From: Pseudovirgaria hyperparasitica
Lineage: Eukaryota > Ascomycota > Dothideomycetes > Acrospermales > Acrospermaceae
Reading direction: 5' to 3'
Assembly (NCBI RefSeq): GCF_010093815.1
Contig: NW_022985567.1
Location: forward strand, 211,367-275,366
DNA: 64,000 nucleotides
The position numbers were made by a program, and so were the translations under genes. This document shows, piece after piece, positions 2,345-18,501 of the stretch. The notes beneath the pieces were generated by a model. That model saw only the letters and a program-made list of their open reading frames with translations. It did not search any database and was not told where the DNA came from. The stretch's first letter is position 1; the number at the start of each line of letters is the position of its first letter.

Positions 2345-4143
2345 TTAGTTGATGGAGATCAATTTGATGTCGAAGACGAGGTTAGAGTTAGCGGGAATAC
2401 CAGGAAGTGACTTATTTCCATAGGCCAATTTGGACGGAATGGTGAGGCGTCGCTCGGCACCGACAGTCATGCCATCGACGCCGATTTCCCATCCTGTGAT
2501 AACTTCACCCTTGCCAAGGACGAAGGTGAACGGCTTGCCCTTTTTGTTCGCTGAACATAGGATCAGCACAAAGGCCACAGTTGGAATTGGAGCAAACTTA
2601 CAATCGAAGACTTTGCCATCTTTCTCGAGCTTTCCGATGTACCTCATGCCGATCTTGTCGCCTTTCTTAGCCGCAGGGCCTTTGCCCAGCTTTTTGTCGT
2701 CAATCTTTACCCCACGAACATTCTTTACGCCGAGGGCCTGCTTCGGTTTGGCATCCTCCTTTTCTCCAGCTTTGGGGAGTGGGGAACCGGTAGGTCCTTG
2801 CTCAAGGTTCTTCGCGAATTGAACCTTTTTGTCGGACTTGGCGGATTGGGGAGTGCCATTGGTGCCATTGACTTCCTTCTTGTCAGATTTCGATGTAGTC
2901 CCGTTGGCCTCTTTTTTGGCAACCTCATCAGCACCAGCAACAGCCAAGCCTTGGTTGTTCTTCAGCTTCTTGAGCTGCTTCTTGCTCAACTTCTCACCAG
3001 AAGCAGCCTCGCCAGACTTCATTGATTTTGCAATGAGATCGTCAAGGGTAGAAGCATCCTCCTCCGAGTCTTCGGCAGCGCGCTTATTCTTGCCCTTCTT
3101 GTCCTTTTTCTCAGCCTTAACAAGCTTTGGGGCCTCCTCTTCCTCACTTTCAACTTCAGTGACGCGGGGATCAGCAATGTCGTCGAGCTCATCAGATTCC
3201 TCATCATAATCATCTGAATCCTCATCCATACCTCCCAAACCTCCGTAGAGATCCATCTCATCGTCATCTTCATAGTCCTCATCATCAGACTCATCTTTGA
3301 CATCAGCAATGTAATTACCGGTCAAGAACACGCTGTGCGTGCCAATGACCTTGAAGTAAACCTGCTCATTTTCGCTGACGGTGATGTCAATTGGTTGTTG
3401 ATAGTGCTGCGTATGTTAGCGTATAGCCATGAGGATTACAGAGACAGTCTAACCTGCGTGGTGTCAAGAGTACAGATCACATGCTCCTCCAATTCACCAT
3501 CCTCACTGTCTGCCTCATCGGAGTCGATTTCCTCGTCGTCGTCTTCATCGGACGCTTTGCCTTTGCCTTTGTTTTTCTTGATACCGTTGACACCGTTGGA
3601 CATGTCATCAACGTCCATATCGTCATCACCAATGAGCGCTTCAAGGATCTGCTTGACAGCAGCGTCTTTTCGAGCTTTCTTGGTTTTTGCCGGATCGCTT
3701 GGGCCGCCATTTACTTCGTCGTCACTTTCATCATCCTCGGAGTCTTCTTCAGAGTCCTCGTCGGACCCGCCGAGAGCAGGTCTGAGACGAGCTTCCAGAG
3801 CAGCGATATCGTCGGAGTCGTAATCGTCCTCGTCGTCTTCGCTTTCACTCAGCTCAGCACTTATGACCTTGATGATCTTCAGAGTCGCGCGAGGGACGGT
3901 CTGATCGGCTGGAGCCAGGTCGAGCTGTGCGGGGGCACTAGGGTCAATGGCCGCCATTGAGATGCGTATCTGCATATGTTTAGTTTCTTATTCAGTCTGA
4001 AAATTTGCGCACAAGTAATATTAAAAGGCAGAGAATGATTAGACAGTACATACAGATGCAGGAAGGTCTTCGAAGCCCGCTGGGATGGGCATATCGCCAG
4101 GCGGGACCTCAAGGGCGTAAACGCGCACAGGTTGCTGAACCAT
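2345..4143 (-). CDS. FPR4: Nuclear FKBP-type peptidyl-prolyl isomerase / histone chaperone (Fpr3/Fpr4)
   Basis: Four exons (4143-4054, 3969-3454, 3406-2602, 2550-2345) give 538 residues. The N-terminus ([16 protein letters not shown], then residues about 30-110) matches the nucleoplasmin-like fold of this family. The middle has several long Asp/Glu/Ser tracts, then Lys-rich linkers, typical of nucleolar histone chaperones. The last 110 residues are an FKBP domain with the [27 protein letters not shown] and [12 protein letters not shown] segments that line the FK506/proline site. Family knowledge: Fpr4 isomerises histone tail prolines and assists nucleosome assembly at rDNA. All three introns are 47-84 nt, and joining across them restores family-conserved sequence. 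The gene shares a 657 bp divergent promoter with REV1. Fpr3 and Fpr4 cannot be told apart here; filamentous fungi usually have one. Confidence 0.93.
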
Positions 4144-4800: not shown

Positions 4801-7800
4801 ATGGGCTCGAAGTTAGAAAGCAATTCCACAGCAGTGCGCAAGCGCATCGAAAGCCGTAGGTATTGCCCAGAGGCCAAAACCTGTACGCTCACCACCTCAT
4901 AGATACATTTGACAATGAGGAAGGAGAGGAATATGAGCCATCCAAGTTTGGAGGCTTCCCTGAATACTTTCGGCGCAAGAAGATAAAGCTCCAGAACCTT
5001 GATGCCGAACTACGCGCCAAGTCCGCTGACAAGCCCGCTGTATTCCGTGGTGTCGTTGCGAACGTCAATGGGTACACTCAGCCATCCTTGAATGACTTAC
5101 ATAGGATGATAGTCGAACATGGTGGTGGTTTCATGCAGTACTTGACCGGCAAGACGGCGGTGACCCATATAATTGCGAGTAGTCTTACGCCTAAGAAGGC
5201 TGTAGAATTCAAGAAATACCGGATAGTGAAGCCTGCATGGGTAGTTGATAGTATCGCTGCTGGAAAGCTGCTGCCATGGGACGCCTATCGTGTTGTGGAC
5301 GAAGGTGTCGGGCAGAAGATTCTCGGGTTCGACAGTGGCAAGATTGTCAGCCAGACAAGCAAACAGTCCAAAGGATACAGGGACCAGTCAGATACCAGCT
5401 GGTACACAAGCCAACTGAAGCAGTCGGCGTCCACCCCTAGCTCAAGCAGACCGAAGTTTCGGTCACAGAGGCCTCCGACACCCGTTTCCGACGATATTGA
5501 TGGCGAGGAGCAATCCGATCCTGACGACGATGTGAAATTGAGGGAGGCTGTCAACTACGATGTGCCTGAAGGTTTCTTTGACGGTGCCACCCCGAATACC
5601 CCCCCGAAGACCAGTCCTGTAGAAGAAACCCCCCAGAGAGAACTGATTCCCGAAGTGGATAAAAGTACGGAGAGCAGGACTCCTGGTGAGAAAGTACGAA
5701 CACCCAGTATAAGGGCCCACAAGAGATCTAGAAGCCCCTCGGCAGATGCTGCGGCTAAAAGACCAAGATGGACTTCAGAACAGAGTGGCGCTCTTCTTGA
5801 TTCTCCCTCGAAACGGAGTCACTTGACCGCCGAAGAACATAACGCCATCTTACTAGCGGATCCCAAGGTCCGGAAATCATCTGTTATCAATCCAGAATTC
5901 CTCGAGCAGTACTACCGCGAGTCACGCCTGCATCATCTATCTACGTGGAAAGCTGACCTCAAGTCTCAGCTACAGACGCTTGCGGCGGAAAAGACATCAT
6001 CCCAGAGAGTTCGCCAGAAGCGAGCCCCCGGTGCTAGAAGGTATATACTACACGTCGACTTCGACAGTTTCTTTGCAGCCGTCTCTCTCAAAAAGCATCC
6101 AGAGTACAAAGAAAAGCCTGCTGTGGTTGCACATGGCAATGGAACGGGATCTGAAATTGCTAGCTGTAATTATCCAGCTCGCAAATACGGAATCAAGAAT
6201 GGCATGTGGATGAAGCGTGCGTTAGAGCTATTCCCAGACCTAAAGGTTTTACCATACGACTTTCCCGCCTACGAAGAAGCAAGTAGATCATTCTATCAGT
6301 CAATCATGAACTGCAGTCCGGAAGCAGTAGTTCAAAGCGTAAGCATAGACGAAGCATTAGTCGATGTCTCTAACAGCTGCAATGCAGCTGGAGGAGGCAA
6401 TGGGGTCCATCCAAGTAAAGGTGCCCTATATCGTGAACAAGAGCAAGCTAATGAAATTGCGACCCGACTACGTGACGAAGTTCTCGCAAAGACTGGTTGC
6501 AATGTTTCAGTTGGCATTGGAGCCAACATTCTACTTGCCAAAGTCGCTCTTCGCAAGGCTAAGCCCGCAGGCCAGTATCAAATCAAGCCCGATGAGATGC
6601 TGGATTTTGTAGGGGCACTCCAGGTACAAGACCTGCCAGGTGTTGCTTGGAGTATTGGAGGAAAGCTCGAGGAGATAGGGATCAAATTTGTGTCTGATAT
6701 CCGTCAAGTTACGAAAGAAAAGCTGGTCAACGCTTTGGGACCCAAGACTGGTGAGAAGCTGTGGGATTACTCTCGAGGCATCGATCGATCCGAAGTTGGT
6801 GACGTGGTGGTGCGTAAGTCTGTGTCTGCTGAGGTCAACTGGGGAGTACGCTTCGAGAACCAAGAGCAGACCGATGAATTCATTGAGAATCTCTGCGGGG
6901 AGCTGAACAAACGACTGCTCAAAGAGAGAGTCAAAGGCCGACAATTCACCATGAAGATCATGCGTCGCGCAGCAGATGCTCCTCTCGATCCACCTAAACA
7001 TCTCGGCCATGGGAAGTGTGATACGTACAACAAGAGCATCGCATTAGGTGTTGCGACCAACGCGAAAGAAGTCTTGACTAAGGAAGCGCTGTCCATATTA
7101 AAAAGCTTCAATATCTCCCCTGGTGAGCTCCGAGGGATAGGGGTTCAAATGACAAAGTTGGAGCCACTGAGAGCCAATCTCGATGGGAAAATCGAGACCA
7201 GCCAACGTAGGCTCCAATTCAAGACTCATAATGCTGTTGGAAGGCCACTGCAAGAGTCTGTATCCGACGAACCGGATGCAGCAGACGATTCCATTCAAGA
7301 CGACGTCGTCACCCCAAAGAAGCCAAAAGCTCCGCCTAAACAGATCAATTACGGCCCTGCTGACCTTCACCAAAGCACACCTCGAAAGAAACCACTTAAC
7401 ACGCTCGGAACGCAATTTATTCTGCCCAGCCAGGTTGACCCTACCGTGCTTGAGGAATTGCCTTCAGACATACGGGCTAAACTTGCTAGGCACGTCCGTC
7501 AAGCATCTCCTTCGCCAGCGGCGAGGCCCAGACCTCCAGCATCAACAGTCCTCCCTAGTGAGTCACAACTCGACCCTGAAGCTCTCTCTGCCCTCCCAGA
7601 CGACCTTCGGGCAGAAGTGCTTGCACACTACGCCCAGGATCTCGAGAAGTTGCACACAGGCGAACATGCCGGTCTTCCCCAGTCACCACAAAAAACTCGT
7701 ATCTTCGCACCTCCAAAGAAACCTGTCGTTCCCGTAAAGCGTGGCCGTGGCCGTCCTCCGAAATACGCCATCGCACCCACCTCTGCCGCTACAAGCAATG

Positions 7801-8459
7801 CGACTTCATCTACTTCATCAACCCTCACCCAAGCCAACTTCATCACATCCCGCCCGACTTCCCGTAACACGGATGCTCTGCAACAAGTCAACGCTGCTGA
7901 CGTTGATGTCGAGTTCCTGGCCGCACTTCCTGCATCCATCCGCGCCGAAGTCCTTGCGCAGCAACGGCTCTCCCGACTTAATAATAAGTCAGCTCTCACT
8001 CTCCCTCGCAAAGCTCCTCCAAGGCCGAAAGCTCCCGTCACTCTACTTCCCTCTCAGCGTACGTTAGTATTACCACCAAGGAAACCACGGCCAACATTCA
8101 CGACGCAGAAGTTCACATCAATCGAAAACCTGCGTACAGCAATATCCTCATGGTGGGATACGTTTAGCGATGAAGGTCCATATGACGAGGATGTCGGTGC
8201 GCTAGGGAAATACCTCTCTGCCGTCGTTCGTGATGAGATGGACATGCACAAGGCAATGAAAGTAGTACAGTGGCTGGCCTGGGTTGTGAGTGAGGGATAC
8301 GAGCAAGACGAAGGGACAGTTGAAGACAGCGACGGATTTGCTGGACTGACGGCCAGCCAAGAAAAGGGGAAGCTCAAGTGGGAAGGTGCTGTAGAGACTG
8401 TCAAGGTCGTCGTGCGGAAAGCAGTAAAGGAACGTGGGCTGGGGGAGATAGACTTTTAA
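4801..8459 (+). CDS. REV1: DNA repair protein REV1 (Y-family dCMP transferase)
   Basis: Exon 1 is 4801-4855 (MGSKLESNSTAVRKRIES), followed by a 47 nt intron 4856-4902 and exon 2 4903-8459, giving 1203 residues. The short first exon is needed: it restores the N-terminal motif of fungal Rev1 just before EGEEYEPSKFGGFPEYFRRK. A BRCT domain lies at about 62-150. The Y-family polymerase starts at about 400 with LHVDFDSFFAAVS (metal-binding Asp residues) and includes SIDEALVDVS at about 497. After the polymerase come three leucine-proline ubiquitin-binding-like motifs (about 858, 904, 1018), each with a [D]xxxLxxLPxxIRAE/KxL core. The C-terminal 115 residues form the helical Rev1 C-terminal domain that contacts Pol zeta and other translesion polymerases. 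Family role: deoxycytidyl transfer opposite abasic sites and scaffolding of mutagenic bypass. Confidence 0.95.
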
Positions 8460-9547: not shown

Positions 9548-12500
9548 ATGTGGTCTCCGCACGAGTCTCGCGCGTCGAATGATCAATTACGCCCGTCTTC
9601 GCACTCGGATGGCGCATTGTATGAGCGCACAATGCTGACATCTTAAGCAGAGCTGATATCGACGCTGATATTTCTCCTGGAACCAGGCCACGAGTGCCTG
9701 CGCAGAGTTCTAGATCAAAGATCGCCCCGTGGGAGACCTCTGGAAAGACGTCAGAATTCAACAACTACAGGAAAGAGCTGGCAGTATTAGATGCGCCGAA
9801 CAGTAATCCAGCGCCGAACTCACGCCAAAGGGTACATAATGCGAACTCGGATTTTCCACCTTGGGCTACTGGACTTGGTGGTACACCGAACGTTTCCAGT
9901 GTCTTCGGGAGCATTGGAAGCTTCTACAATGATTCGAACGAGGACCTGACCCAGCTCTCACCTGGACTTCGCCCTGGCAGTAGTAAAGATGAGGTGGTTT
10001 ATCCTGGTGATGATCGCCGGCCGTCCATCGCTAGCAACACCACTGTGAGCAGTCAAGGATCTAAATCGAGCATTGGCCGCGGGTTTCATAAAAAGCTGCA
10101 GGGTTTCTTCGGTGAAGAATTTCCAGTTATCGACTCCAGACAGAGCTCTGATACTAGCCTCGCCTACAATGCCTTTGCTGCTGCTGGAGCTGGCAATAAT
10201 AGCGACAACTCGTCTCGAGTACGTCCCCGAAACAATTCAATGCGGACCGCTGTAGGGGAGGGCTTAAACAGCCGACCAGTATCACCTGCAAGCTCACGCC
10301 CACGTACACCTCTACCATCAAGCGAAGTTACCCCTTGGGAATATCAAGATCTCAAGGTAAGGAGCCATTGGGGAAGACGGTTGAGCGCACTATGCTGTTG
10401 TGCTTTCCTTGCGTTCCATTTTGATTGTCTCAACTGACGACTTGGGCAGGAACTCCCAGGCTCCATCAGCTTGTCACGCCCCTCAACGGAACATTCGAAC
10501 TCCAAGTTCTCCAAATCGCACAAACTCCATCTACCTGGACACCGTCAAAGAGGGAGCAAGGAGGACAACAGAGCCGAATCTAACATCGGATACACATTAC
10601 GACCGAGTCTCAGCAGAGAGGAGTCGAGCGGAAGCGCGCGCAAGCCAGATAGTCGACTTCATCAGCTCCCAGTGGCACTTAGCTCGGCTTTCAACTCTAG
10701 CACTACGCTCGGTCGACCTTCAAGTCCAACGCCCAGCGGATCAAGTGCGCTCAGCAAGGAGAATATGGCTCAGCGCTCCCCGGGTGGCAATGGCAACCAC
10801 AAACGCTCTCTCATCGACCGATTAACGCGAAAGCACAAGGCCGATCGAGTCGTTGCGGATCCACTCAGTGACTTGTCCCCGTCCTCAACGTCTTTACATG
10901 CCCAACTGAGAGCCCCGAAGCTTCCGAAATCTGAGCCCACGGGAAACACGCGGAAACGGCCTGGCATAGAGCCCCCGCCAAGCATTCGTAGCAAAGAATC
11001 AATTCCGAAAAAAGAGCATGCCAGTAGGATACCTTTCAAGAGCTCGAAAAGAGGCCACCTAGCTGTCGAGCCATCAGCAAAGGATCCAAACGAAGCGCGG
11101 GCTTCAGCCGTTATGAACGAAGCTCTTTGGAATCTAGACACAGACTTGACACAAATGGAGGGTATCATCGGCAACCCCCTGCTTGGGCCCTTGACACCAC
11201 CTGTGGGGGACGTATATACAGCCTTCCCAGGTGACGATGCGTACAAAGAACCCAAGGAATACGAGGCACCCCCTGCGATATGGGATGCTCCGGATTCCTG
11301 GGCAGTGAAGCGAGTCGGGGATGAGAACATGGGTAGGCTACGTGAGCTTGACGAGAACGGCGATATTCCTAAGGATGACAACGTCGGTCCACCATATTGC
11401 GTACGCATATTTCGAGTTGATTCGACTTTTGCTGTCCTTTCCGTGGGACTAAACACAACTGTTGCTGAAATCATAGCGATATTAGGCAAGAAGACTTTGC
11501 TGCAGGACGAATTGAACAATTACCAGATCGTTATGCGGAAACACGACACTTCGCGGCAACTGCAACCCCAGGAAAGACCTGTCGTAATACAGAGGCACCT
11601 CCTAGAACAGGCTGGCTACACCGACTCTGATCGTCTTGAAGATGTCGGTCGAGAGGACAACAGTTATCTCTGTCGTTTCACTTTTTTGCCGTCCAAGATG
11701 ACTGGCTACTCGAGTCTCGAAAAGGATCCCGGCTTCAAGAATATGCAAAAGTTCAGTCATATCGATCTCCAAGGCCGAAATCTAGTCACTATTCCGATCA
11801 CACTATATCAGAAAGCAACTGAAATCATTTCTCTGAACTTGTCCCGCAACCTCTCCCTCGACGTCCCAAAAGATTTCATACAGACATGCACTAATTTACG
11901 GGACATCAAATATACTAGTAATGAGGCTTGGCGGCTACCTCCCAGTTTAGGCTTGGCCAGCAGGCTTACCATGCTAGACGTCTCCAACAACCGCTTGGAG
12001 CAGCTAGACAACACGGAGCTTAACAAGCTGCACAGTCTACAAGGCCTGCGTCTATCAAACAACAAACTTACGTCCTTGCCCTCGTATTTTGGCCAGTATA
12101 AAGCTTTGCGAAGCTTGAACCTCTCATCGAACTTTCTGAAGGAGTTTCCAGACTTCCTCTGTGAGGTTCGAACACTCGTGGATCTCGACATAAGCTTCAA
12201 CACGATTTCCAGTATTCCGAAGATCGGACAGTTGACCTGTCTAGAGCGACTTTGGGCGACAAACAACAAGCTCACCGGATCATTTCCACCATCACTGAAG
12301 AATCTCGTCAACCTCAGGGAGATCGATGTGAGATTCAACAGCCTAAACAATATCGACGTCATGTCTCAGTTGCCGAAGTTGGAGCTTCTGATAGTTGGTC
12401 ACAATTCAATATCTGCCTTCGAGGGCACTTTTGAGAAAGTCAAAGTGCTGCACATGAATCACAACCCAGTAACAAGATTCGGAATCACCTCATACGTACC

Positions 12501-15500
12501 GTCACTCTCCGTCCTAAATCTTGCATCCGCAAAGCTGGCGCAGCTCCCAGAGGACTTGTTCCAAAATGTACCCGGCCTTATTAAGTTCATCCTAGACAAG
12601 AACCATTTTGCATCTCTTTCTCCACAGATAGGACGATTAACTCGCCTCGAGCATTTCAGCGTTGCAAGAAACAATCTAGAACACTTACCAACCGACATTG
12701 GGCGTCTTATCGAACTCAGATTTCTGGACGTAAGAGAAAACAACTTACGGAAACTACCACAGGAGATTTGGTTTGCGCGCAAATTGGAAACTCTCAACGT
12801 CTCATCGAATGTCTTAGACACATTCCCTAAGCCACTCTTCCAAGCATTGAATGTAAATGAGCCAGCCGGTCTAGATGGAGGATCGACACCCACCCAAAAC
12901 AATGCGACAGGTCCCGAATTCGAAGAGCTTGGAAAACTCGAAGACTTCGCCGCTCGGCGCCCGAGTCAAGCTTCCGGTTACCTAAGTGTTGGTAGCTCTC
13001 CAGGGACATCAGTTCGTAAAGGGTCGATGGCCTCATCTTACGCTAGCGGCAGAAAACCTTCAATTATGTCCAGATCGACTGAAGGGACCCTGACGCCTGT
13101 CACACGGAAGGACTCAAGCTTGTCAAATAGACTAATGAGTACTTTTGCCGGATCCCTGCGGCACATTTATCTTGCCGACAACAGGCTGAACGACGATGTC
13201 TTTGATGAACTCGCACTACTTCCAGAACTGAGAATTGTCAATATGTCTTACAATCTGCTATACGACATTCCACCTCGTACGATTCGAAGGTGGTCAAATC
13301 TCGCAGAGCTGTACTTGTCTGGCAACGACCTGACATCGCTACCAGCCGAAGACCTCGAAGAGGTCACCTCCCTGAAAGTATTGCACATTAATGGAAACAA
13401 GTTTCAAGTCCTTCCGGCCGAACTAGGGAAAGTTGCCAAGCTGGCCATTTTAGATGCGGGTAACAATGCGCTGAAGTACAATGTCTCTAATTGGCCATAT
13501 GACTGGAACTGGAATTGGAATCACAACTTAAAGTTTCTCAATCTGTCTGGAAATAAGCGCCTTGAGATCAAGAAAGCCCTGAACGCTGTGGGAAATGCTC
13601 GAGAGGGCAGAGATCTGACCGATTTCAGCTCTTTGACTAACCTTCGTGTTCTTGGTCTGATGGATGTGACAATGATCGGCTCAAGCGTTCCTGAACAGTT
13701 TGAGGATCGAAGAGTCCGCACCTCGGGATCAACCGTAGGATCAATGGCCTATGGAATGGCCGACAGCCTCGGCCGCAATGAGCATCTTTCTACGATGGAC
13801 CTCGTCGTTGAAAGGTTCCGCAGTCACGATGATGAGACTCTCCTTGGCCTGTTTGACGGACAAGCGTTGTCTGGTGGCGGCTCCAAGATAGCGCGCTATC
13901 TTTACGAGAATTTCAAGCTTAGATTCACCGATGAGCTGGAGAGACTACGACCGCAGGAATCTCCTGCAGACGCTCTCCGTCGGACCTACTTAGGGCTAAA
14001 TAAGGATCTTGCAACAGCTGCCACTTCGTCGTACGAAAACAAGGCACACACTTCCCAGGCTCCTGGCGCACATCGCGGCTCAATATCTCTGCCAGAGCTC
14101 GGAGAGGATGATTTGAACTCTGGCAGTGTCGCTACTGTGCTTTTTCTCAAGGAAATGGACCTCTTCGTTTCCAACGTGGGGGACGCACAAGCTCTCTTGA
14201 TTCAGTCCGATTACACTCATCGCACAATCACAAGGAAGCATGACCCTGCAGAACATGGAGAGAGGGCACGGATACGTGAGGCTGGCGGATTTGTCTCTCG
14301 ACAAGGCAAGCTGAATGATGTACTGGAAGTATCGCGCGCCTTCGGATACGTGCAGATGTCCCCATCGGTGATTGCCGCGCCCCACGTGAATAAGATCACA
14401 CTTAAGGAAACCGACGAGATGATCGTAGTCGCCTCAAGAGAATTATGGGAATACCTTGCAGCGGACTTTGTTGTCGATGTTGCAAGATCAGAGCGCAATG
14501 ATCTCATGCGAGCAGCTCAAAAGCTTCGGGATCTGGCAATTGCTTTTGGAGCGGCAAACAAGATCACGGTGATGATTATCGGAGTAAATGACCTTCGCAG
14601 CAAGCAACGTGCCAAGCACCGCACTCACAGCATGTCCATGGGTCCGTCAGGTTCCCCTGATGAATTCACGAGCAGACTCAAGAATGCCAAGCGAGCGAAG
14701 GATATCGTCGCAGACTCAAAGTTGGCCCGGCTGGACCAGGAGGTCGACGCACCTATAGGCGAAGTCAGCCTTGTCTTCACGGATATCAAGAGCTCGACTC
14801 TACTTTGGGAGACATATCCAGTACCGATGAGATCCGCTATTCGCATGCACAACGAAGTCATGCGACGCCACCTACGCATCATCGGTGGTTACGAAGTGAA
14901 AACTGAAGGAGACGCATTCATGGTCGCCTTCCCAACTGTGACGTCGGCATTGCTATGGTGTTTCACAATTCAAAGCCAACTACTGGAGGTGCCGTGGCCA
15001 CAGGAAATCCTAAACAGTGTGAACGGCCAAGAAGTCTTGGATGCTGATGGTAACGTGATATTTCGCGGTCTTTCCGTCCGAATGGGTATACATTGGGGTA
15101 CTCCAGTGTGCGAGGTTGATCCAGTCACGAAACGCATGGACTACTTCGGGCCAATGGTCAATCGGGCCTCGCGTATATCATCAGTGGCAGATGGTGGACA
15201 AATTACAGTCTCATCTGACTTCATTGCGGAGATTCAGCGGCTGCTAGAGACACATATCGAGACTGACCGCAGTGGATCAACAGGTTCGGAAGACACAATG
15301 ACCGAGGATCCCATCAACCAAGTCATTCGACGCGAATTGAGGTCGCTCAGTAGTCAGGGCTTCGAAGTCAAAGACCTTGGAGAGCGAAGGCTGAAAGGTC
15401 TTGAGAATCCCGAATACATCTACCTGATGTATCCTCATTCGTTGGCAAGTCGCTTGAGTGTACAACAGCAACGAAACGAAGCAGAGCAACAAGTACCTCA

Positions 15501-15955
15501 GCAACAGGGAATTGCTGCCACTAAAGTTCGAGACAGTACGTTGACAATTGACACTGAGCATGTATGGGATCTCTGGAACGTAAGCCTACGTCTAGAGATG
15601 CTATGTAGTGCCCTTGAAAGTTCTAGCGGTCCGGCGCAACTGAAGGCGCCGGAGACTGCATTACTTGAAAAGATGAAGAACAGAGGCGGCGAAATCACGG
15701 ACCGGTTCTTGATAAACTTTGTCGAGCACCAGATTTCACGGATTGAGGTATGTTAATCTTTTTTCTTATCTTAGATGGATCATGACTAACTAAAAGCAGA
15801 GCTGTGTCACTACACTAGCACTGCGGAATCTCATCCGACCGTTCGGGCAAAATAGTCTCCTCGATCAAGCCTGCCCAATGGCCGACATATTTGCTGCTCT
15901 CACCTCTCAGCTAGACGAATTGAAGACTCTACAAGCTTCCGCGGTGAACTTCTAG
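9548..15955 (+). CDS. CYR1: Adenylate cyclase (fungal Cyr1 type: RA - LRR - PP2C-like - class III cyclase)
   Basis: About 2064 residues in four exons: 9548-9618, 9687-10356, 10450-15747, 15800-15955. The first 250-550 residues are Ser/Pro-rich and disordered. A Ras-associating domain follows at about 562-660, then two blocks of leucine-rich repeats (about 683-1041 and 1148-1330). A PP2C-like domain spans about 1341-1631 and the class III catalytic domain about 1681-1911, with LVFTDIKSSTLLWE, EVKTEGDAFMVAF and MGIHWGTPVCEVD. The tail continues through the last intron to a C-terminal segment that in yeast binds the CAP/Srv2 protein. The product makes cAMP for the PKA pathway, downstream of Ras. 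The long frame from 10471 is certain. The first exon and its 68 nt intron are inferred because the next exon has no ATG before an in-frame stop. Confidence 0.93.
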
Positions 15956-16982: not shown

Positions 16983-18501
16983 ATGCGGTCCACTCTATCC
17001 CTGTACTCGTCTGTCACCGCCATCCTTTTTGCACTACAAGCCACAGGTCAAGATGTCAACAGCAAGGCAGAAGTTGGAATAGAGGTCTTGCGCACAGTCG
17101 AGTGCTCCAGAAAGACGGTAAATGGAGATGCTATCAAGGTTAACTACCGTGGCACGTTTCAGAGCGATGGCAGCGAGTTCGACAACAGTTATGACCGTGG
17201 CGAGCCGATAGGGTTCACGTTGGGGAAGCACCAGGTCATCACCGGGTGGGATATGGGCCTACTGGGGATGTGTATAGGCGAACAAAGACGTTTGACGATT
17301 CCTCCTGAGTTAGCGTATGGCCATGATGGTACTGGTCCGATTCCACCGGAAAGTACACTGAGTAAGTTTGATAGTCATATATAAACATGTGTTGAACGAG
17401 ACTAACCAAGGATGTAGTGTTTGACACTGAGCTGATGGATATTGCTGGAGTTGGCGTCGGTGACTTTACAGATGCAGACGGTGGCCCTGATGCGCAACCT
17501 GCTGAAGACAAAGAGCATGGAGGAGATAAGCCTGAAGGCGATGGTGAATGCCGTCTGCTGGGACCGTTCGCATTGATCGTCCAAGGAGCATTGGGTGCTC
17601 TGGCTCTGCTCTCTCTGGTATTCAAGCGGTGGCGCGAGTCTCCACGGCGTCCGATCAAGGTTTGGTCCTTTGACGCGTCGAAACAAGTCGTCGGCTCAAT
17701 CCTTCTTCACGTGGCCAACCTTCTCATGTCAATGCTATCGTCTGGAGATTTCGATATCGCCGCAAAGACAAAGGAAGCAGTGGAGAACAAGCAACCCAAC
17801 CCTTGTTCGTTCTATCTCCTCAACCTGGCTATCGACGTAAGTCTCCATCATAGCAGCCGCATCAAAGTTTAATGCTAACCAAATAGACTACCCTGGGCAT
17901 CCCCATACTTGTTATCTTGTTGAAGGTGCTCCATCACGCCTTCCTCCTCACTCCTCTCGCTCGACCACCGCAATCCATCAAATCCGGCCACTACGGCTCC
18001 CCACCTCGTGTGTCATGGTGGGCCAAGCAATCGCTCATCTACTTCCTCGGCCTGATTGGCATGAAACTCTGCGTCTTCTTCATCTTCAAGCTGCTCCCCT
18101 GGATTGCGTGGGTCGGCGACTGGGCACTGCGCTGGACAGAGGGTAACGAGGCAGTACAAATCACCTTTGTCATGTTCATCTTTCCGCTCATCATGAACGC
18201 CATGCAGTACTACATCATTGATACTTTCATCAAGGACCACGCAGGTGGAGAGGAGAGCGGGGAGTATCAGCAGGTAGACGGCGATGAGGATGAAGAGACG
18301 AGGAGAATTCGTGAGGCAAGGGAGTGGGAGGATGCGGATAGTGACAACGACGAGAACGAACCATTGACGGGCAGGGAGACACTCAAGGAGGCCAACCCGA
18401 CTGCAGTGCCGGTAAGAGATCGGGATGGAGGGCACAGCAGTTCGAGCAGTAGGAGTGAGCGGAAAGGTGGTTTGCTTGGAAAGGAAGCCAAGACGAAATA
18501 A
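16983..18501 (+). CDS. Fused ER FKBP prolyl isomerase and STIMATE/YPL162C-type multi-pass membrane protein
   Basis: Three exons (16983-17361, 17418-17836, 17887-18501) encode 470 residues. Residues 1-22 look like a signal peptide. About 30-137 form a secretory-pathway FKBP domain of the Fpr2 type ([50 protein letters not shown]). The first intron falls just before the last FKBP strand, so the FKBP fold is completed only by exon 2 ([11 protein letters not shown]). Exon 2 then runs without a stop through an acidic linker into [17 protein letters not shown] and the conserved STIMATE (TMEM110; yeast YPL162C vacuolar membrane) region, with about five hydrophobic segments. The C-terminus is charged and Ser/Arg/Asp-rich. 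The family's animal members regulate ER-plasma membrane calcium contacts. The N-terminal FKBP would be lumenal. The fusion is the unusual point; a nested second start at the ATG at 17435 is the alternative. Confidence 0.85.

Follow-up and report, generated by a model that had tools for sequence, protein, structure and literature searches.

The plus strand of Pseudovirgaria hyperparasitica contig NW_022985567.1 (assembly GCF_010093815.1) raises the question of whether an FKBP prolyl isomerase and a STIMATE membrane protein are made there by one gene or by two. The analysed stretch comprised 64,000 nucleotides (positions 211,367 to 275,366 of the contig; hereafter the window, in whose numbering the coordinates are given), and the two coding parts were located at positions 16983–18501. 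In our study, the exons 16983–17361, 17418–17836 and 17887–18501, when spliced, were found to form one 470-residue frame closed by a stop codon. We consider it probable that one gene yields one protein here, a membrane-anchored lumenal prolyl isomerase in which STIMATE replaces the KDEL signal. This is a joint estimate, drawn from the sequence, for the whole explanation, which includes the joined transcript, the cleavage of the signal peptide, the topology, the catalysis by the FKBP part, the history of the gene and the membrane of residence.

The open frame, the splice signals and both domains were observed directly. Exon 1 (16983–17361) contained the start, a putative signal peptide (about residues 1–22) and the FKBP domain up to its last strand. 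Intron 1 (17362–17417, 56 bases) contained the donor GTAAGT, a CTAAC branch-like site at 17402 and the acceptor TAG. Exon 2 (17418–17836) contained the last FKBP strand, MFDTELMDI, followed by an acidic linker (17444–17536, residues 136–166) and the first two transmembrane spans (TM1 and TM2) of STIMATE. Intron 2 (17837–17886, 50 bases) had the same donor and acceptor, with a CTAAC branch-like site at 17875. Exon 3 (17887–18501) ran from TM3, which begins at the exon border, to TM5, followed by a charged tail and the stop codon TAA. In the spliced protein, Pfam placed FKBP_C (PF00254) at residues 41–132 (E 4.2e-32, profile positions 1–93 of 94), where the whole domain, with 110.8 bits, lay above the curated cut-off of 21.1. 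STIMATE (PF12400) was placed at residues 256–382 (E 2.8e-43, profile positions 1–123 of 124; 147.7 bits against a cut-off of 22), and this match starts near the end of exon 2. Beyond these two, no Pfam family was matched at E up to 0.001. Five bacterial models of NCBIfam were matched, all under their cut-offs, and a scan for bacterial promoters and terminators gave nothing of use for a fungal gene. An initial annotation had joined an endoplasmic reticulum (ER)-type FKBP to STIMATE in one frame. The 470-residue frame, the two Pfam domains and the lack of a stop between them agree with it, and its coordinates of intron 1 and exon 2 were exact. Intron 2, which it had implied without coordinates, is needed as well.

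The last FKBP strand is encoded by exon 2, since intron 1 was located just ahead of it. From this strand the claimed frame ran without a stop through the linker into STIMATE, and the first stop of exon 2 in this frame was found only at 17870, within intron 2, whereas the other two frames had stops at 17433 and 17422. By the patterns applied, no donor-like site was found in 17430–17600, and no branch/acceptor pair was found in 17362–17900 besides those of introns 1 and 2. Retention of intron 1 would give a stop at 17382–17384 and a product devoid of the last FKBP strand. In the three further FKBPs found in the assembly, the stop lay at most 8 residues past the last strand; the fused frame stays open instead, so that its FKBP lacks a separate end. 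The initial annotation had likewise stated that the FKBP could not end properly outside the membrane protein and that intron retention would truncate it, and the open frame, the linker and the retained-intron stop bear out both statements. In the linker, the claimed frame had the best codon preference (0.214, followed by 0.132 and -1.096 in the other frames), by a training set of just two open frames of the window. Over every tested part of exon 2, the codon score was likewise highest in the claimed frame. The weight for the predicted join thus lies in an FKBP without its own stop, the shared frame of the two domains, the best codon preference in the linker and a fitting topology.

By its sequence, the FKBP part is assigned to the ER type. 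When the whole assembly was searched for FKBP_C, five matches were obtained and read as four genes, two of the matches falling in the FKBP12-like gene; the profile searches ignore introns, so that the FKBP and STIMATE counts given here are lower bounds. The four were the fused gene, a gene on contig C14 whose product ends in KDEL (observed directly), a nuclear nucleoplasmin-like gene in the window and an FKBP12-like gene on contig C1. The fused FKBP shared 59% identity with the KDEL-ended FKBP over 105 residues, 37% with the FKBP12-like paralogue over 97 residues and 35% with the nuclear paralogue over 136 residues, the nuclear frame being compared unspliced and with an insertion. Among the FKBPs of the assembly, cysteines 41 and 97 of the fused protein were common to the KDEL paralogue only. 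Its best single-domain PDB match was FKBP14 (1.6e-30), followed by FKBP2, both of which are ER FKBPs. The same two were the top single-domain matches of the KDEL paralogue, so the PDB ranking does not separate the two proteins. The pocket of FKBP12 includes Y26, F36, D37, F46, V55, I56, W59, Y82 and F99, and also H87; the first nine of these positions were matched by eye in the fused FKBP, which would be expected to act as an isomerase. The equivalent of F99 is encoded on exon 2, and therefore exon 1 alone should not form a working pocket.

The FKBP12-like gene (contig C1, L005 1831-1886) was also found to contain an intron just ahead of the last strand, a few bases off the position homologous to intron 1 of the fused gene and in a different phase. 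The nuclear-type FKBP gene was located at 2345–3415 of the minus strand, about 14 kb from the fused gene, and contained a nucleoplasmin-like part and FKBP_C. Its open frame showed an insertion inside the FKBP domain, possibly an intron left unspliced. The window thus contains two of the four FKBP genes detected in the assembly.

The STIMATE part was the only match to its profile in the assembly, a direct observation, and a search of the assembly with exon 2 returned exon 2 only. Five hydrophobic spans were found near residues 177–195, 217–235, 266–288, 313–335 and 355–376 by hydropathy, their ends adjusted by eye. The alignment to human STIMATE began at GDGEC (residue 167), right after the linker, and continued through TM5. 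TM1 and TM2 alone scored 140 against the human protein, compared with 26 on average and 46 at most among 500 shuffles; this comparison serves as a lead only. No solved structure matched the STIMATE part at E up to 10. Pattern scans with exon 3 gave 6 matches in viral contigs and 53 in bacterial and archaeal genome contigs, and scans of viral contigs with exon 2 and exon 1 gave 11 and 8 matches, respectively; no relative was confirmed among them, and these viral, bacterial and archaeal collections are uninformative on conservation in fungi.

The topology was predicted from the charges of the loops. The stretch before TM1 contained 3 lysines and arginines (K+R) against 11 aspartates and glutamates (D+E), the loop after TM1 contained 7 against 2, the loop after TM2 3 against 4, the loop after TM3 3 against 0 and the loop after TM4 1 against 3. 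By the positive-inside rule, the basic loops after TM1 and TM3 and the acidic character of the others place the N-terminus in the lumen, and the five spans then place the tail in the cytosol. Together with the ER-type cysteine pair, the loop charges suggest that the FKBP faces the lumen, as the initial annotation had proposed. Cysteines 171 and 256 would likewise both be lumenal in this topology. The N-terminus contained a hydrophobic core, whose best 11-mer reached 1.78 as against 2.89 for the KDEL paralogue, and it may act as a cleaved signal. The hydrophobic N-terminus, the ER-type FKBP and the predicted lumenal N-terminus of STIMATE are mutually consistent. The protein ended in KEAKTK and lacked a KDEL-type retention signal; it was therefore classed as a membrane-anchored variant and not as FPR2. 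A dilysine end was also absent from the C-terminus, in which position -3 was K, whereas -4 was A and -5 was E.

Several observations weigh against the explanation by one gene and one protein. In the window, 37% of random plus-strand frames, coding stretches included, were open over 35 codons, so the openness of the linker alone is weak evidence, and the codon score of the second linker frame was close to that of the claimed one (0.132 against 0.214). An in-frame ATG at 17435 could begin a STIMATE-only product. The Pfam match to STIMATE covered residues 256–382 only, and TM1 and TM2 rest on hydropathy and on the lead from human STIMATE. The putative signal peptide was only modestly hydrophobic, weaker than that of the KDEL paralogue (1.78 against 2.89). 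The pocket residue H87 had no match in the fused FKBP, nor had it one in the KDEL paralogue. The tail was acidic overall (15 K+R against 26 D+E), a charge that the positive-inside rule leaves unexplained; a mildly basic character was confined to its last 20 residues.

Among the alternatives, the one that survives best is a variant of the fusion itself, with which its probability overlaps. By way of STIMATE, the FKBP may reach the membrane of the vacuole and would there face the vacuolar lumen; we regard this as possible, though less probable than otherwise. The absence of a KDEL or HDEL end and of a dilysine end agrees with it, and yeast Ypl162c was reported only at the vacuolar rim in log phase (PMC8176713). 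Human STIMATE, on the other hand, is described as an ER protein (PMC8944985, PMC7889955), and the nearest FKBP paralogue carries a KDEL end. The ER and vacuolar versions share their topology, and so the sequence cannot decide between them.

That two products arise from one locus is unlikely. A STIMATE-only transcript would then start inside exon 2, where the in-frame ATG at 17435 would yield a STIMATE with all five spans behind an acidic N-terminus, and the FKBP transcript would be short or minor. Such an FKBP transcript would have no stop past the last strand, the next one in frame being at 17870. By the patterns applied, the linker showed no donor-like site, retention of intron 1 loses the last strand, and the three further FKBPs found in the assembly end at most 8 residues past theirs. 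A misassembly or a wrong base that joined two adjacent genes is very improbable, for even with the evidence coming from one assembly only, the join sits within a contig of 839 kb, the codon score of the joining exon is highest in the claimed frame wherever it was tested, and the two domains are both intact.

The membrane-anchored lumenal isomerase would be built and used as follows. Led by its putative signal peptide, the FKBP prolyl isomerase would enter the lumen of the ER. Behind the FKBP, a flexible acidic linker would lead to the complete five-span STIMATE of the YPL162C type, which would hold the protein in the membrane, with the charged tail on the cytosolic side. The gene most likely originated from a duplicate of the soluble ER FKBP with the KDEL end, which was deprived of its stop and its KDEL and became joined to the STIMATE gene. 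In the resulting protein, STIMATE would do the job of KDEL, since it would retain the isomerase in the pathway and set the membrane at which the isomerase works. We infer that the clients would most likely be membrane proteins or wall-bound secretory proteins near that membrane.

A wider reading, which we offer as speculation and consider rather doubtful, is that the fusion is conserved in a group of fungi and reveals the role of fungal STIMATE/YPL162C. This role would be to keep folding enzymes, whether fused to it or bound by it, at a particular patch of the ER or vacuolar membrane for the isomerisation of membrane clients or contact-site proteins; where the fusion is absent, the lumenal face of STIMATE would bind a soluble ER FKBP. 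A natural fusion to an enzyme whose activity and usual compartment are known would establish the N-terminus of STIMATE as lumenal, would name a testable partner for fungal STIMATE and would represent a second way of retaining an enzyme of the KDEL type within the secretory pathway. In the literature searched, fungal STIMATE is sparsely covered; YPL162C is named in 3 papers, and in passages from two of them it appears as one name among listed vacuolar proteins.

The initial annotation had also assigned the membrane part to a calcium-contact family. This assignment rests on human STIMATE, which is reported to act on STIM1/Orai1 and to stabilise ER-plasma membrane junctions (PMC8944985, PMC7889955), TMEM110 being described as an ER-plasma membrane contact factor (PMC9889089). 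For Ypl162c, the yeast member of the family, the reported place is the vacuolar rim (PMC8176713). A search of the assembly for the Orai family gave no match, but its control was equally silent, so that this negative is uninformative. A role of the fused protein in calcium entry is not supported.

Two other genes of the window were observed on the plus strand. At 10438–15756, an open frame of 1772 codons contained leucine-rich repeats and a C-terminal cyclase-like stretch, and by eye, without a family search, it looks like a fungal adenylate cyclase. At 4860–8459, a Rev1-type DNA polymerase was found in a single open frame with BRCT, IMS, UBM and REV1_C. When the 35 Mb assembly was searched with an exact 27-base pattern of the 18S ribosomal DNA end, no match was obtained, and the ribosomal DNA may therefore have been left out of it.

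One of the closest known systems is NcFKBP3 (FKBP22) of the filamentous fungus Neurospora. Like the fused protein, it is a secretory-pathway FKBP with a charged part behind the domain, and it differs in that it ends in HNEL and is described without membrane spans (PMC1618848). An amphipathic helix and a role at the membrane surface were suggested for it (PMC1618848). The FKBP section of the same study of 16 fungi mentions no fusion to a membrane protein. In 24 Penicillium species, four FKBP orthogroups were reported, with FKBP alone or FKBP together with NPL (PMC8192932). The fungal FKBP repertoires described in the sections considered comprise nuclear, cytosolic, ER and TPR forms, and STIMATE is not among the partners given there (PMC1618848, PMC8192932). 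The sections of PMC5627428 considered, on 69 mostly chordate species, name neither FKBP nor fungi, and PMC7016017 mentions neither STIMATE nor TMEM110. No natural FKBP-STIMATE fusion was found in the titles or the opening lines of abstracts among the literature matches listed. The pairing may be new; this negative is weak evidence of novelty, and the architecture may already be present in domain databases.

With FKBP2/FKBP13, FKBP14 and the fungal FPR2-type proteins, the fused protein shares the ER-type cysteine pair in an FKBP domain behind a hydrophobic N-terminus. It differs from them in that it lacks a KDEL-type end and continues into a five-span membrane protein. With STIMATE/TMEM110 and yeast YPL162C (PF12400), it shares the full Pfam match and, by the comparison that serves as a lead, the same run of spans as in human STIMATE. 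The N-terminus of human STIMATE is short, whereas an FKBP domain stands in its place here. TMEM110 was described with 4–5 transmembrane domains (PMC7889955). Human STIMATE is reported to end in a polybasic tail (PMC8944985), whereas the tail here is acidic overall and mildly basic only in its last 20 residues.

FKBP11 is an ER-lumenal protein. Its human form is drawn with an FKBP domain between a signal peptide and a C-terminal transmembrane region (PMC9027113), and the fused protein resembles it in having an FKBP with a putative signal peptide and a C-terminal membrane region. A membrane-anchored ER FKBP as such is therefore not new, whereas the initial annotation had proposed a new type of membrane-bound foldase or regulator. 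The difference lies in the anchor, which is a plain transmembrane region in FKBP11 and would be a conserved multi-span family in the fused protein.
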